A stretch of 64,000 bases of DNA from Henricia sp. BOLD:AAB3569 (Eukaryota; Echinodermata; Asteroidea; Spinulosida; Echinasteridae). Where the stretch lies: positions 1,302,001 through 1,366,000 of the forward strand of contig JBBELK010000164.1 of assembly GCA_037783545.1 (NCBI GenBank), read 5' to 3'. The notes beneath the pieces were generated by a model. The model had not been told where the DNA came from and ran no database searches. It saw nothing but the letters and a program-made list of their open reading frames with translations. Shown here in pieces: positions 7,760-57,957 of this stretch (positions are counted from its first letter, which is position 1; each line of letters starts with the position of its first letter). Both the position numbers and the translations under genes were made by a program.

Positions 7760-10700
7760 CTAGGGGAACGAAAATGACCAGGGGTACATTTTATAAGCTG
7801 TTCAGCAGAAAAATTTGCTTAATACAAAATTGAATTGCTTTGTAAAAAATGGGTTAGAAGTCAAAATCGTTTGTGATGTGTAGTACACTTGACTAATGTT
7901 CTGATACTCTTGCTAAGAACACAAATTGACATATGATTTTGCCTGCTAATCCATTTTTGCAAAGCAAATAAATGTTGTATTTTGGGATTTTTATCAATGA
8001 AATCTATGCTATAAAACCAATAAACTCAGTTACATTCAAAAAAATCCTTTTTGGAGCTTGGGTTGGGGGATTAAAACAAAGGTTTTTAATTTTTATGCTA
8101 ATGAAATATGCATATTCATGACCAAGGTTATGATGTCACAAGAGGCAAACACAGGAAAATCACATTCAACTGTGCACAAAGGATTCAACCCTTTTTCTCA
8201 AACGTCCTGGAACTTTTGTAATCCATAACTGTTTGAGTTTGTTCTACATGTTTCCTGTTGTAAGCCATGACGAAACTGGGGGAGAAAACTGCAGCAATTT
8301 GCCACAAGCCCAACTTGAAGTCTTATGTTTTTTCTTAACTTTTCCGTTCTGTCTTCCTTACGTGATGCACTCCAAACAGCGCCCTCTGTCTGTGGTTTAT
8401 TGTAATGAAATCTTCAAAGTTGAAAAAGGCTACCTTTTTTTGATTTTACATCCAAATGAACAATAGCATGTCTTGCTGAACAAGTAATCCATCAAATGAA
8501 GCAAAGATTAGGCAAAAAGTTGTTTAGCATGTCATGGGCCCTTTAAGCAAATCTTTCCTGCTAATGCTATGTTTACACCGAAGCACGACCAAGTTAGGGT
8601 CGACTTACGAGTTGTAAAATTCTGTATTTCTTGGACTCGTGAGTGGTCATGAAACTTTTGTCAAGGGGCGACCGAGAAAGTTTCCCGACTGTTTTGAACC
8701 GTTCCATACGGTCGGGGAACTTGTGCCGAGCGATGGCGATTCCCCCCCGAGTTATTGCGAGTGTTCAGGAGTAACTTACGACCTTCTGACAAGTAACATA
8801 GGAGGAACTTAAGATCTTGCAGACCAACTCCTGAGGAAATGCCATTTTGACAAATTTTTGTTCGTAAATCACTCTCAAGTCCCTCGGGATTTCGGTGTAA
8901 ACAGGGTATAAACGGCTTTATGAAATTGGCAATCTGTACCAGTATTAAAAGAGTTTGTTCAGATTTTTTTTAGAAAATTGATTTTGTTCTAACCCATGAT
9001 TACCTATAAAATACCTCCCCAAAATACTATCTATGAGAAGAAAACAGGAAATCTGCAATCTCCAATTTGGATGTGGAAGCAAAAAGGTTGGTGTGATCAC
9101 TGCACTGCTTTATGGAACGGATAAATTAGTTTACAAAAAATCTGTGGCAAAATTTCAGAATGGTAATGAGAAAAATGAGACAAATGATATGGTATCAAAA
9201 TCTCAACACCCATGGGAGTCTCAAAAATGTGATCTGGACGCGCCCCTTTAACATGGACAACTCACCTTTTTCTTTTTCCCCGCTATGACCATGTCCTCTC
9301 GCTCGAGCCGGACGGATGAACGGCCAGGCCGTAAACCGGCCCACGTGTCGATAATTTCAGCACTCTAGTAAAAAATCAAATATAAATTAAGTCAAAAAAT
9401 AGTTTCATTTGTAAAATCACAGAGAGTTGCTTTTGCTTTTGTTTGAAATTTTGTCAGTCAAACATGAGACGAGAGAAAAATCATATAGTCCTCGTTGGGA
9501 TTCGAACCCGTAACCTCTGACACACCGGGAAGATGCTGAGCTATGAGGCAGAGTGGTATAGACCATATCGAATAGCTGCCATCTTGTAGGGCATCTTTTG
9601 ATATTTAAATTAGTCAACAATGTAAGGTTTCCCCCAAGAGCTCTGACTTAGCAGCTGAGCTATGAGGCAGTGGTTTACACCCTTAGGTTTTCCCCCAAGA
9701 CTTCTGACTCACTGGGCAGAAGCTCAACCAGCTGAGCTATAAGGCAAAGTGGTATACTCCCTCAGGTTTCCCCAGGACCTCTGACACACCAGGCAGATGC
9801 TTCACCAGCTGAGCTATGAGGCACAGTCGTATACTCCCTCAGGTTTTCCCCCAAGACCTCTGACACACAGGGCAGGTACTCTACCAGCTGAGCTATGAAG
9901 CACAGTGGTATACTCCCTCAGGTTTTCCCCAAAAACCTCCGACACCAGGCAGATGCTCAACTAGCTGAGCTATGAGGCACAGTGGTATACTCCCTCAGTT
10001 CCCCAAAGACCTCTGACACACAGGGCAGGTACTCCACCAGCTGAGCAATGAGGTACAATGGTATATCCCTCAGTTCCCCCAAGACCTCCGACACATTGGG
10101 CAGATGCTCTACCAGCTGAGCTATGAGGCACAGTGGTATACTCCCTCAGTTCCCCAAGACCTCCGACACATTGGGCAGATGCTCTTCCAGCTGAGCTATG
10201 TGGTACAGTGGTATACTCCTTAAGCCTTACCTTTAAACTCGGAACAAGCTTTGTACACCTCTCAATGATGTCCTTAACATCTTCAGGGTTCGATTTATCA
10301 TTCCAGTTGTTCACTTGGGCTGTTCCTCCGCAGTGTAGGTATTCAGTGCTAGTATGAGAATAAAAAGGATGTGTAAAACCCCGTTCTCACTAGGGAAATT
10401 GTTTAATTCGAAGAAGATTAGTTAATCATCGTTAGTTTATGAAGCGTGCATTCACATATCACTTAACGAAGATCGAATGAAGAGCAGTACCGTTCACATT
10501 AAGCGACCGCTAACGAAGATCGAATGAAGCTGTGGGATACCGTACATGCACGTCGCGCATCAAGCGCCGAGCTTCAAGCATTTTCCAGTGGCACGTCAAA
10601 AACAACACTTGCAAGGCGCTTGATGCCCAACGCGCTTGTGCAACAAGGCCTGCCAAATTGCTTCATTGAATGAAGGGAGCATTCCCATTAGAAATTTGCC

Positions 10701-13700
10701 CTGAACCACGGCCTACGCACGAAGTGGTTTTTAGGTGAAGTGGCATTTGGGCGAAGTGGTTTTGGGGTGAAGTGGCTTATGGGTAAAGTGGTTCAGGGTG
10801 AAGTGGTCCAGGCCGAAGTGGATTTGGGGCGAAAATAATTTCCGTTTCATGAGACGAAAATTAATTGTTTTACTTATTTCTCAAAGACTATAGCACTTCA
10901 GACAAAACCATTTCAGAGGAAGTTTTCTACCATAAACATGTTTATATTGTTTAAGTTATGTGTAAATCTGTGAACATTTTCTGATTTTCAAGATCTATAC
11001 CAATCATGTAGCCGTGGCCGAGTGGTTAGGGCCATTGACTCACAATCATGGGTGAAAACTTGGGGTTGCGGGTTCGAATCCGGCTGCGGTACGTGTGCCC
11101 TTGGGCAAGGCACTCAACCACACTTGCTCCATCCTTCGGAAGGGATGTAAAGCTGTTGGTCCAACTGTTGGACCAATGGTAACGCACTTTAAAGATCCCA
11201 GAGCATTCTTTCGTGAAGAGCAAGGGGATTCCCCGGTGTCTCTGGCCATTTCTAATTCTAATTCTTCATGGGTTTCCTCACGCTTACGAGTGACAGTGCA
11301 ATGAGCACTATTGAGGAATCCTTGGTATGAATACCAGAAAGAAATAATAATGTATTCTACCTTCAACTTACCCGGGCAGGAGGTATGTTGCAGCTTCACC
11401 TTCGCCCAGCTCACTACAACAGTTTTTCCAAAGGGTTTTCATCTATTTAAAAAAAGAGGAAGGCTGTTAAAGGCCCATTTTATCATTTGCAATGACCAAA
11501 CATTTTACTTCACGAGTTGACAAGAAAAGTGTTGATAGCAATGGTAACCAAGACAACATGAATTTATTCCTGTCCAAAATGGTTATTTTCTGTCTTCATC
11601 GGGGGCCAATTTCAGAGCCGCTTAAGCACAAGTAGTAACGGCGTGCTTACTGTTTGCAAACAAGTTAAGCGCTATTTGACGGTCGCGGCATGGTTAAGCA
11701 TGCGCGCGAATACCTTACCCAATTATATCATCGAGATAGAGGAGACACATGAGATAATTCTGGTCACCAAGGCATGTCATCATCAGGCGTTGGAAAGTAG
11801 CGGGGGCGTTTACTAAGCCAAATGGCATCCTGTTGCATTCAAACAAACCCATCGGAGTTGTGAAAGCTGTTTTACGTATGTCCGCCTCTTCCATTTGTAC
11901 CTGCCAATAGCCCGATGTAAGGTCAAGTGTGGAGAACAGGTTGGCTTTACCCGGATCACTAAGTTTGGCTCTGCAGTTAAAGACACAGGCTCGTCAGCAA
12001 TGGGCGCGCGCCAAAATTGTGCCACGAAATACGCAGCTCCATGCCTTTGCTAAGGAGCTGCGTATTTTGTGGCATGAATTTGGCATGCTCGCATTGCTAA
12101 TGAGCCTGCCTTTAAGGCATGTTTTCAGTTGCTCACCGTCCCGCTTACCGTTAACCTCTACCTCTTATCTCTATGAAATGGCACGGCACTCGTTAAGAGA
12201 AAATATGCTGTTAAGCAGCTGTATGAAATTGGGCCCAGGATTTGAACCAGAGACCTTTGACTCAATAGGCAGATGAGCTGTGAGGCACAGTGGTATACTC
12301 ACTCAGGGTTTCCCCCCCCCCCCCCCCCCAAGACCTCTGACACACTAGGCAGATGCTCTACCAGCTGAGCTATGAGGCATGCAGTGGTATACCCTCAGGT
12401 TTCCCCAAGACCTCTGACACTCCGAGCATAATGCTCTACCAGCTGAGCTATGAGGCACAGTGGCATACTCCCAAAAAAAACCCGTTTTTTATTTTTAACG
12501 TACCTCTTTTATTGAGAATGGCATTACAATCAATTTTTCGGAAATTACACTTCCATCAAGGATGCTTAAAGAACATGTATTTAAAATCAAACAACTTGAA
12601 TACGTGAAGCATTACAAGCCCTCAATGTCTCTGAAATGTAAATCTGAATTTATGGAATTGCCCTAAATTGGGTGTCAGTTCGTGAAAACACAATGTGATG
12701 TCAATTTCCAACCGAGAGGCGTGGTTAAGTGCCATTGCGTATCAGTTTGTGGTGTCACCAACGAGATGAAGGATTATAAATAGATTAACCTTACCGTAAC
12801 TATTTCTCCTCTTATTGGGTAAACTTCTTTGTCGTTGAGTAGGTGTCGCGCACCGATGCCAGGGCAAACGACGATGACATCGTACAAGTCAGAAATCTTG
12901 AGAGAAACATTTGGGAACATAAACACATACATTTCTTAACCCTCTGTTCGCCCAAGGTGCTTAACTGAGAGGCACTTTTTAATTTTTATTTAATTACAAA
13001 AAACCCAGAGTGCTAATTTTGCTGAAACTAGGTGGCTGCCTTGCCAAGGCACCCAACCCTATCAGCAGTTAGATTGTAGCATTCCCCCTAACAGCTCCCC
13101 AAATATCGCTTGGGTTGACGAGGCAATTGAGATTAAGTGTCTTGCCCACAGACACAAACACGTCGGCACAAGTGGGGCTCGAACCCATAACCCATCGATC
13201 ACGAGCACGGCTGTGTACCCACTAGACCACACGTGCTCTCATAGTCAGGAAACCAGCCTAAATATGACGATGGCATCACACAATTTCTTGTAAGCATGTA
13301 CACAGTTTTTCATTGTTTTCTCAGAATGTACATGGGATACTGTAAAAGCCAATATTTTCGCGTACAGATATTTTCGCGCATTTCAACATCACTGACATTT
13401 TCGCGAGTTGTTATTTTCGCGGATGGAAATTATGTCACCTTAACAGGGATCGCCACAATTGTTGCAAACAATATTTTCGCGGGTTGTTATTTTTGCGGGA
13501 TCTATCTGTTGCACGAAAATAAAACCACCGCGAATATTTCAGCTTTTACAGCACTGAGGTGACTTATGTACAGGCTGGTTATTATCACACACATCCTCAA
13601 TCACACATGGAGGTAAAAAAAAGCAATTTTTAAGAATTTTCCAATCTGTAATCTCCCAAATTCTCCCCTTATTTTATCAAATGCCAATTCTTTCTTACCT

Positions 13701-16688: not shown

Positions 16689-17820
16689 GCATTATTATAT
16701 GGAACGCCATAGCTATCTTCGGTAGTACCACAACGCCGCCTTTATCATTTCATCATTTCATTCGCCAATTTCATCATTACATTCGTCAATTTCATCATTT
16801 CATTCGCCAATTTCATCATTTCATTCGCCAATTTCATCATCCCATTCGCCAATTTCATCATCCATTCGCCAATTTCATTATTCCATCCGCCAATTTCATC
16901 ATTCCATCCGCCAATTTCATCATTCCATCCGCCAATTTTATCATTCCATCCGCCAATTTCATCATTACATTCGCAAATTTCATCATTTCATCATTTTATT
17001 CGCTAAATTCATCATTACATTCGCCAATTTCAACGTTACATTCGCCAATTTCACCCTTACATTCGCCAATTTCATCATTGCATTTGTCAATTTCACGTTG
17101 CATTCGCCAATTTTACCCTTCCATTCGCCAATTTTACCCTTCCATTCGCCAATTTCACCCTTACATTCGCCAATTTCACCCATACATTCGCCAATTTCAT
17201 CATTACATTCGCCAATTTCATCATTACATTCACCAATTTCATCGGTTTTACAAGGCGATTTGCCCTTGTTTGCTAGTAATCGATTCAATATTATTGGTTT
17301 TAGGAGTAATCATTGTACGCGACGAGTTCGCCGTTTCATTCTTCAGTTTCATCATGCCATGCGGCAATTTCACCGTTCCATGTGGCAGATGTCTGGTGAA
17401 CCAAAGTAAAGTAGGCCTAGGATTCAGCCTAGTAATTCAGCCTAAGATTCAGCCTAGGATTCGATATCTAAAATACATGCGCCAAAAGATTACAAAAAGT
17501 GTGTTAATAAAAAAACAAGTCAACGAATTTTTAAAACTCCATAAACAAATGCAAACTTTTACCATTGAATAATTCTTCCAAACAATCTACAAGTTCAATA
17601 ATAATATCTATTACGTACGTGGGGGAAAATGTGCAAAAACGTGTTAATTATCAAAAGAAACGATACATTAAAGCCAACCGGTCTTCTTTAAAGAAAAGTG
17701 TATCCTTTGTGTTAACGATTTTCACACCTTTTTTACGATAAACTTTTAGATCATCACTATATCTAAAATAATATTTTGGAACCGGCTGATTCGCAACACT
17801 AATTAGTTCCTAATTAATCA
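16689..17820. repeat. Left arm of a giant inverted repeat, with 21-bp minisatellite
   Basis: Starts ATTATTATATGGAACGCCAT and matches the reverse complement of 21838-22958 along its whole length. About 16741-17245 is a minisatellite of the 21-bp unit CATTCGCCAATTTCATCATTA (about 24 copies). The remainder ends near GGAACCGGCTGATTCGCAAC. It lies about 165 bases upstream of the oxidase start codon, so it is part of that gene's upstream region. Confidence 0.9.
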
Positions 17821-21837: not shown

Positions 21838-22958
21838 TCATTAATTAGGCACTAATTAGTGGTGCGAATCAGCCGGTTCCAAATTTTTTTTTAGATATGG
21901 TAATGATCTAAAAGTTTATACTAAAAATTTGAAAATCGTAAACACAAAGGGTACACTTTTTCTTTGAAGAAGACCGGTTGGCTTTAATGTGTCCGTTTCT
22001 TTTGATGATTAACATGTTTTTGCACATTTTCCTCACGTACGTAATTGGTAGTATTATTAAACTTGTAGATTGTTTGAAATAATTATTATATTGCAAAAAT
22101 GTGCAAAAATTATTATATTGCAAAAGTTTCAAAAATTCGTTGACTTGTTTTTTATTAACACACTTTTTTTAAAAATCTTTTGGAGTATGTATTTTAGATA
22201 TCGAATTATAGGATAAATCTTAGGCTGAATCCTAGTGCTGAGTTGAAATGGTACATTGCCAAATGGGACGGTGAAATTGCCGCATGGCATGATGAAACTG
22301 AAGAATGAAACGGCGAACTCGTCGCGTGCAATGATTACTCGCAAAAACGAATAATATGGAATCGATTACTAGCAAACAAGGGCAAATCGCCATGTAAAAC
22401 CGATGAAATTGGCGAATGTTATGATGAAATTGGCGAATGTAATGATGAAATTGGCGAATGTAAGGGTGAAATTGGCGAATGGAAGGGTAAAATTGGCGAA
22501 TGGAAGGGTGAAATTGGCGAATGCAACGTGAAATTGACAAATGCAATGATGAAATTGGCGAATGTAATGTTGAAATTGGCGAATGTAATGATGAAATTGG
22601 CGAATGTAATGATGAAATTGGCGAATAAGATGATGAAATTATAAAATTGGCGAATGTAAGGGTGAAATTGACGAATTTAATGATGAAATTGGCGAATGTA
22701 AGGGTGAAATTGGCGAATGGAATGATGAAATTGGCGAATGGAATGATGAAATTGGCGAATGTAATGATGAAATTGGCGAATGGGATGATGAAATTGGCGA
22801 ATGGATGATGAAATTGGCGAATGGAATAATGAAATTGGCGAATGAAATGATAAAATTGGCGAATGAAATGATAAAATTGGCGAATGAAATGATGAAATTT
22901 ATAAAGGCGGCGTTGTGGTACTACCGAAGATAGCTATGGCGTTCCATATTATTAGGGG
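21838..22958. repeat. Right arm of the giant inverted repeat
   Basis: Reverse complement of 16689-17820, including its own 21-bp minisatellite (about 22400-22905, unit TAATGATGAAATTGGCGAATG). The boundary GGCGTTCCATATTATTAG mirrors the left boundary. Arm-to-arm similarity is high outside the satellite. Confidence 0.9.
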
Positions 22959-32504: not shown

Positions 32505-32680
32505 AAGACAACATTAGTCAGAGGTCTCGGGTTCGAATCCCGATAAGGCCCTAAGATTATTCCCCTCATCCCAAGTTTGGTTGTTTCATTTCAATGGTGA
32601 TCAGGCACCACACCAGATGTTGTGTTTGGTCTGTAATGTGTATGAACACCTCTTGTGGCAAGGCTGACTGTAAGAGCCAC
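32505..32680 (+). repeat. tRNA-SINE fragment: B box and body
   Basis: GTCTCGGGTTCGAATCCCGA (B box) is followed by the body CCTCATCCCAAGTTTGGTTGTTTCATTT..GATCAGGCACCACAC, shared with copies at about 9455, 45580 and 56810. The A-box half is missing. Confidence 0.75.
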
Positions 32681-34141: not shown

Positions 34142-49294
<15,153 letters not shown>

Positions 49295-56807: not shown

Positions 56808-57795
56808 TGGTGCCTAATACCATTTAAATTAAACAACCAAACATGGGATGAGAGAAAAATCACAGGGGCCTCATTAGGATTTGAATCCGAGACCCTTGAC
56901 TCTGGGCAGATGCTCTACCCGCCTAGCTATGAGGCAAACCACCTTTGCAAACCACAAAATCAAAAGTTAGTCATACCGTGACTCTGACCAAAAAGTATTT
57001 TGCGGCAAGTCCCACTATTAAAATGTTAGTCTACCAGCTGCGCCTGCGCCTGCAACTGATATATCCCGACGAGGAGATTGTTGTAGTATTTGACAGATAC
57101 AGTACAGAAGTCTGCCAGGTACTTTGTGGCAAGTGTGCAGGCAGATGCTCTACCAGTTGGGCTATGAAGCACAGTGGTATACTCCCTCAGGTTCTCCCCC
57201 AAGACCTCTGACACACCAGGCCGATGCTCTACCAGCTGAGCTACATGTATGAGGCACAGTGGTATGCTCCTTTAGGATTTGAACCAGAGACCCTCGACTC
57301 TGGGCAGATGCTCTACCAGCCGAGCTATGAGGCAAACCACCTTACATTATGGATAAATGTGACTGAGCAGTCAGATGCTTTACCAGCTGAGCTATGAGGC
57401 ACAGTGGTATACGGTACTCCCTCAGGTTTTCCCTGAGACCTCTGACACACCAGGCCTATGCTCTACCAGCTGAGCTACATGTATGAGACACAGTGGTATA
57501 CTCCTTTAGGTTCCCACCCCTCCCCTCTCCGCCCCCAACCTCCTCCCCGAGACCTCTGACACACCGGGCAGATGCTCTACCAGCCGAGCTATGAGGCACA
57601 GTACTATTGGTATACTCCCTCAGGTTCCCCCCCCCCCCCCCCGAGACATCTGACACACGGGGCAGATGCTCTACCAGCTGAGCTATGAAGCACAGTGGTA
57701 TACTCCCTCAGGTTTCCCCAAGACCTCCGACACACCAGGCGGATGCTCTACCAGCCGAGCTCTGAAGCACAGTGCTAGTGGTATACGCATCAGGT
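56808..57795 (-). repeat. Largest tRNA-SINE A-box array, about eleven units
   Basis: From the SINE body at 56808-56870 (AACAACCAAACATGGGATGA on plus) and a B box (GGATTTGAATCC, 56877-56888) the minus strand runs through about eleven A-box units to 57795. It includes several units with their own degenerate B-box-like GGATTTGAACC (57264-57280), two poly-C runs and a 74-bp non-repeat spacer near 57030-57120. More irregular than the other arrays. Confidence 0.85.
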
Positions 57796-57957
57796 TATAC
57801 GAACCTACATTTGTGTAATTATTGCCACAAAGATGCACAAAATTGTCAGCTTTGAGTAAAGTGCCAACAAATTAATGGGTTAATGGCTCAAATGCTGTAT
57901 GGTTTCTGTAGCAACCAAAAATCCATAGTATGGTTTTTAACCAGGCAATTTTCCAAA

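Follow-up and report, generated by a model that had tools for sequence, protein, structure and literature searches.

A tRNA-derived SINE of the sea star Henricia and its half-promoter minisatellite, which is variable, often internal and apparently of one origin

Introduction

The window analyzed here is a stretch of 64,000 nucleotides from Henricia sp. BOLD:AAB3569 (contig JBBELK010000164.1, positions 1,302,001 to 1,366,000). At five loci in this window, units of about 77 bp carrying only the A-box half of a tRNA-like SINE head are repeated in tandem. The question raised is how such arrays of half promoters arise, by separate duplication at each locus, by addition during reverse transcription, or from a common duplication carried along with the SINE. 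A preliminary description, made from the letters of the window, had named template switching and unequal exchange as possible causes.

Data and Counting Rules

Genome-wide counts refer to the 740.7-Mb assembly (2104 contigs) that contains the window. The first set of arrays was selected by similarity to window array 1 and is biased to long arrays; the set of tails was selected by similarity to the tail of array 4 and is biased to that subfamily. L001 to L008 (except in one early count), L029 and L050 were dropped from later counts because each of them duplicates another locus or the window itself. L018, a duplicate of L017, was dropped from the counts of unit distance, position, collinearity, target-site duplications (TSDs), site 64, junctions and 5' domains, and L037 and L044 were further dropped from those of site 64 and junction type.

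Anatomy of the SINE and Its Half-Head Unit

The element is composed of a 5' domain (..TTTGCCCAGTTGCGCATCCATGCAACACCGAGAGAAAAGTTGGGTTTTTAGGGAAAACC), a leader, a tRNA-like head with A and B boxes, and a short tail ending near CATGTTTGG, and has a CATCCCATGTTTGG end. In the consensus, the repeat unit of about 77 bp comprises the leader, the A-box half and the anticodon arm of the tRNA-like sequence, with GGAAAACCTGAGGGAGTATACCACTGT as the leader and AGAGGTCTT at its end. The final unit continues into the B box GGGTTCGAATCC and then into the tail. The fixed stretch GAGGTCTTGG..CTGAGGGAGTATACCACTGTG and the A-box side, named by the preliminary description as the parts of the unit, are present in it. 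What had been called a spacer is not foreign; these approximately 28 nt are the element's own leader, which also fronts single heads.

The consensus head was found to be tRNA-like (Thr or His) by ARAGORN, and the same program found no tRNA in two tandem half-head units. By this pair of results, the earlier reading of a tRNA-derived SINE carrying arrays of half tRNAs is right. Rfam matches the last unit of array 4 to tRNA, at 45414-45479 with 30.2 bits. A tRNA-related head with A and B boxes and many dispersed copies, both features of tRNA-derived SINEs, were found, and single-headed copies (monomers) and arrays have head, leader and tail in common. The consensus head terminates in GGACCA, so that the CCA end is seemingly encoded.

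Copies with a complete first leader are 22 monomers, 27 arrays of at least three units and two two-unit copies; the 5' domain stands ahead of the leader in 18, 11 and one of them, respectively. These 30 of 51 leaders were found with a profile built from 25 of the same 51, and those 25 match by construction. A profile made from four copies matched nothing beyond its four seeds except for a single match at E 0.79, and the domain was not seen in an all-against-all comparison of flanks at 1e-3. The element is thus larger than head and tail together, and in the 11 arrays that keep the 5' domain in front the array is internal to the element and is not a simple addition at its 5' end.

Arrays in the Window and Their Gene Context

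The unit profile detected all five arrays that had been described (Table 1). Tandem Repeats Finder (TRF) gave periods of 75-78 bp at four of them; locus 5 was absent from its list and was visible only as direct repeats. Loci 1 to 5 carry 9, 3, 7, 5 and 9 unit matches, final and partial units included, and the range of 3 to 11 units reported earlier becomes 3 to 9. That only the final unit has a B box is the usual rule, with an exception at locus 5, where the B-box head inside the array is nearly identical by eye to the terminal one (approximately 56876-56940). A tail was found behind the final unit at loci 1, 3, 4 and 5; at locus 2 the tail profile gave no match despite the B-box-like stretch seen by eye. 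The earlier list of features lacked the single-headed copy, which lies tail to tail with array 4, and the isolated tail fragment.

Table 1. Features of the SINE and its arrays in the window.
Feature	Position	Strand	Evidence
Array 1, 8 half-head unit matches, one partial	9649..10228	-	Unit profile; TRF 9652-10219
Array 1, B-box head of the final unit (9513-9567) with SINE tail (9461-9509)	9461..9567	-	Profile matches
Array 2, 3 units, the last entering a B-box-like stretch (approximately 12238-12248)	12238..12473	-	Unit profile; TRF 12326-12468; B-box-like stretch by eye
SINE tail fragment	32529..32578	+	Tail profile
Array 3, B box and tail	35806..35853	-	Tail profile
Array 3, 7 unit matches, between two exons of a kinase gene	35856..36379	-	Unit profile; TRF 35856-36379; translations of flanking exons
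Array 4, 5' domain of the element ahead of first unit	44993..45064	+	5'-domain profile, 6.9e-16, this copy being one of the four seeds of the profile
Array 4, 5 units, the last being the tRNA-like head	45066..45460	+	Unit profile; TRF 45066-45463; Rfam tRNA
Array 4, B box and tail	45461..45510	+	Profile matches
Single-headed SINE copy, head 45658-45732, tail 45607-45656	45607..45732	-	Profile
Array 5, B-box head at the end of the array (56890-56936), followed by the tail (56839-56888)	56839..56936	-	Profile matches
Array 5, 8 unit matches, one being a second B-box head (approximately 57274-57340) inside the array	57138..57796	-	Unit profile

By eye, arrays 1 and 3 are both flanked by exons. 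The start of array 1 coincides with a GTAAGG splice donor or is only a few nucleotides away from it, and this donor follows 20 residues of translated sequence. Array 3 is placed by the translations of both flanking exons, read by eye, inside an intron of a kinase gene, presumably SGK-like; the array and its tail (35806-36379) make up most of this short intron by eye. In a search for another haplotype of the region that includes array 4, the unique flanks had no counterpart among the matches listed. Other tandem repeats in the window are about 50 copies of a 21-bp unit at 721-1759 (94% matches) and two arrays of 21-bp units at 16747-17243 and 22402-22899, which are mutual reverse complements about 5 kb apart.

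Abundance in the Genome and Number of Units

The junction between successive units is GTCTTGGG followed directly by GAAAACC. Over the whole genome, its 36-nt form has 1331 exact matches, its 27-nt form with Y at the diagnostic site has 3178, and the B-box head has 1675, and each reversed control pattern has 0, which rules out an origin by chance. Exact junctions in viral contigs numbered 0. Among the matches listed, 100 junctions are held by 43 separate places on contigs C1 to C7.

The number of units ranges from 1 to 105 over the 71 unit clusters read, in which weak single matches and one duplicate locus are included. In L020 (G000:C607:277500-287300), the longest array read, 105 units extend across about 8.2 kb, and the best lag, which is weak, is 2 units. 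By eye, the arrays read have a longer terminal unit reaching the SINE end, with at least L012, L016, L023 and L025 lacking it. From 100 B-box places among the matches listed, 20 were sampled (10 of the 12 of CTT type and 10 of CTC type spread along the list), and six of these were arrays, five of CTT type and one of CTC type.

The Junction and the Diagnostic Sites

The junction joins two similar short stretches, ..CTTGGG of the head and ..TTAGGG of the leader. All 285 junctions fitting the common pattern at 33 loci are of CTT type, junctions inside one array being not independent of each other. Genome-wide, 99 of 100 junctions are CTT against only 12 of 100 B-box heads, both counts resting on the first places (for junctions, the first contigs) among the matches listed. 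Because of this disparity, the duplication probably arose once. Longer junctions, which would indicate an intermediate step, numbered 0.

Interior and final units are distinct also at site 64, which was counted in 30 arrays of at least two units, elements with a tail match starting beyond model position 10 being left out. Interior units have T in 310, A in 12 and an unreadable site in 27 cases; for final units the numbers are 18, 10 and 2. Fisher's test gives p 7e-7, a value that is too small, related units within an array being treated as independent. In the ten arrays with A in the final unit, the interior units have T 170, A 3 and 10 unreadable (one of these arrays, L027, was read across a deletion), so that interior and final units disagree at this site in 10 of the 28 arrays that could be read. 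Since an array made at its own locus would match its own head, and these do not, they point to a half-unit lineage that is common to the loci.

Local Change of the Arrays

Two pairs of similar places differ by whole units. L043 and L044 have 1 and 8 units, with a gap of 536 columns equal to seven units and 91-100% identity in 200-column windows. L037 and L038 have 3 and 7 units, and their flank identity of about 90-94% by BLAST makes a duplication more likely than alleles. In both pairs the difference may be growth or loss, and an assembly error in repeats is conceivable. No difference was found between L017 and L018 (11 units each, identical flanks) or between L053 and L055 (1 unit each, 97.6% identical).

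Nearest neighbors were compared for 512 units drawn from 34 arrays, L020 alone contributing 105. The neighbor belongs strictly to the unit's own array in 273 cases, is tied in 94 and lies in another array in 145; with permuted labels the numbers are 12, 99 and 400. Uniformity rises with array length (Spearman -0.62, p 8e-5, 34 arrays), and the distance within an array is smaller than that between arrays in 25 of 34. In the other nine, diversity inside the array equals or exceeds that between loci; eight of the nine, including three of the four window arrays tested, have 5-8 full units, a size class of 13 arrays. These exceptions are not described by recent local growth and are old or were made at insertion, a result that fits template switching better. 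In L057 a multi-unit duplication was found, with a best lag of 9 units and a distance of 0.013.

No signal of position was seen among interior units (of 300 nulls, 158 and 182 were at or below the observed value), and no collinearity was found between arrays (15 of 60). When first and last units were included, a small positional signal appeared (1 and 0 of 200 nulls), which is taken as an edge effect; a positional order of interior units, considered as a candidate, is absent once these units are omitted. The preliminary description had proposed that clustering of units by position suggests spread as multimers and clustering by locus suggests local amplification, and the outcome is mixed. Final and interior units form distinct classes across loci, interior units are in neither positional nor collinear order, and clustering by locus is found in long arrays but is missing from 8 of the 13 arrays that have 5-8 full units.

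Target-Site Duplications and Arrangement of Copies

Perfect direct repeats of TSD type were found at L076 (15 bp), L047 and L072 (12 bp each), L071 (10 bp) and the three-unit copy L065 (10 bp); taken alone, the last could be chance. TSDs are rare; in a scan of 86 elements, nine score at least 10, where about 1.2 are expected. In two of the nine (L045 and L052) one SINE tail matches another, and the two arms of a single inverted pair (L069) account for two more, leaving six places. The 11-bp repeat of L037/L038 has one mismatch and a score of 8, and it is no evidence by itself because 9% of random pairs score as high.

Inverted pairs of SINEs, head to head with tails outward, were seen at L043/L044, L047, L051, L069 and L078, and also at L045/L050, L049 and L058. 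Outside both tails, L051 has direct repeats of 17 bp and L069 of 13 bp, with one mismatch each, where random pairs reach a score of at least 10 in 0.17% of 2968 trials; no such repeats were found at L043, L044, L047, L049 and L078. This suggests that some inverted pairs were inserted as one unit, perhaps primed from both target ends. The head-to-head pairs might suggest a DNA element whose ends are inverted; this reading was dropped in view of the 10-15 bp TSDs and the 5' truncation of some single copies. Head-to-tail tandems are present at L010, L040, L052, L062 and L063, where the body of one SINE meets the 5' domain of the next. Among the matches listed, pairs of B boxes are 228 and 231 bp apart (C8 and C4) and 166 bp apart (C3).

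Origin of the Arrays

It is probable, in our judgment, that the arrays go back to one founder duplication, which spread with the SINE and was followed by local growth or loss through unequal exchange or slippage. A CTTGGG-type copy would have undergone, probably once, a duplication reaching from its leader to its variable loop, and exchange at microhomology would have made the joint, giving a two-headed form with one B box. We infer that this form moved at the RNA level and was dispersed with the SINE to many places. At each place, unequal exchange or replication slippage may have moved the number of interior units up or down and homogenized the long arrays. The suggestion in the preliminary description that arrays change locally by unequal exchange gains support (slippage would serve equally) from the two pairs differing by whole units and from the homogenization of long arrays within a locus. 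Its further suggestion of growth at each locus fits as regards local change in length and seems to fail as regards a separate start, since junction and interior type are common across loci and unlike many of the attached heads.

Growth entirely at the RNA level is possible but, on balance, unlikely. A reverse transcriptase at the leader would slip back to CTTGGG in the same or another SINE RNA, and several half-heads would be made per insertion. The junction does unite two short similar stretches, interior units are often unlike the final-unit type, as switching to another RNA would yield, and the 8 of 13 arrays of 5-8 full units that vary inside at least as much as between arrays look as if made at or before insertion. 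However, the junction is nearly uniform (285 of 285; 99 of 100 among the matches listed), although the commoner CTC heads should also serve as templates, and the two place pairs with unequal unit numbers, the local homogenization of long arrays and the multi-unit duplication in L057 also speak against it. Template switching may have acted in the founding duplication or in the making of short arrays, and it is most conceivable for the latter. Quite improbable is that a few multimeric source genes gave rise, by retroposition, to long multimers copied whole. The interior class and junction common across arrays and the perfect 10-bp direct repeat around L065, which may be due to chance, would agree with such copying. 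Against it, arrays share no unit order or collinearity, and an array of 105 units is unlikely to be one pol III transcript.

Independent duplication of each array from its own head at its own locus would account for the clustering of long arrays by locus. We regard it as very improbable in view of the single junction type and of an interior class that often mismatches the final unit of the same locus. For a trivial satellite confined to the window, nothing was found in favor, and the 3178 exact junctions in the genome refute it.

Comparison with Known Systems

The Twin SINE of Culex pipiens is said to contain two tRNA-related regions with a short spacer, as a fixed dimer. More than one tRNA-related region in one SINE would be common to both systems; in contrast to a fixed dimer, the head number here is not constant (1 to 105 units) and upstream units have no B box. 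PMC9191728 describes dimeric SINEs as widespread.

The closest known kind is the SINE-derived satellites of squamates. In PMC10702118, the repeats of sSat1-3 are about 70-290 nt long and derive from a portion of a tRNA-SINE; the terminal unit is longer and extends to the SINE end. The number of units goes from a few up to hundreds and beyond, uniformity increases with array length, and orthologous loci differ in unit number. The tandem unit from a SINE part that also exists as monomers, the longer terminal unit and the homogeneity rising with length are the same here. Minor satellite units of geckos are from the 5' or tRNA part of a SINE, and arrays with both SINE ends are reported as uncommon, so that the present anatomy is not without precedent (PMC10702118). 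Differences are that the unit of snake sSat3 contains the B box, whereas the main unit here is the leader and A-box half without it; that an internal array behind a 5' domain is common here (11 of 27); and that squamate arrays prefer subtelomeric regions, whereas two of five window arrays sit between exons by eye, on contigs that are unplaced on chromosomes. Whether SINE-derived satellites are limited to squamates is given there as uncertain (PMC10702118).

In the Haber and Louis model, as given in PMC6947457 with Alu and B1 as examples, minisatellites originate when exchange or slippage takes place between short repeats flanking the motif. The junction between CTTGGG and TTAGGG is compatible with this model of minisatellite birth, short repeats bracketing a motif that then grows in tandem; a difference is that one unit type accompanies the SINE at many places here. 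Mobile elements with an internal (central) tandem array are also known in the DINE (Helitron) group (PMC9659126). They belong to class II, whereas TSDs of 10-15 bp on some copies, 5' truncation and the tRNA-like head point to retroposition here. Among the open-access papers listed in literature searches, we recognized none that describes A-box half-head arrays.

Meaning of the Finding

The Henricia element appears to be a SINE with an often internal and variable half-promoter minisatellite, which apparently had a single origin, has spread with the element and has been reshaped locally. A more general reading, which we hold tentatively and at somewhat less than even confidence, is that of a self-carrying minisatellite, in which the SINE spreads the half-promoter repeat by retroposition and each landing seeds a locally growing array. 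If this is true, the birth of satellites would be driven by transposition and not by repeated independent duplication, and introns would receive arrays of A boxes without B boxes. SINE-derived satellites are here at many places, with an apparently single founding joint and with stages from one head to 105 units, and therefore the order of duplication, spread and local growth may be tested from the diagnostic sites.
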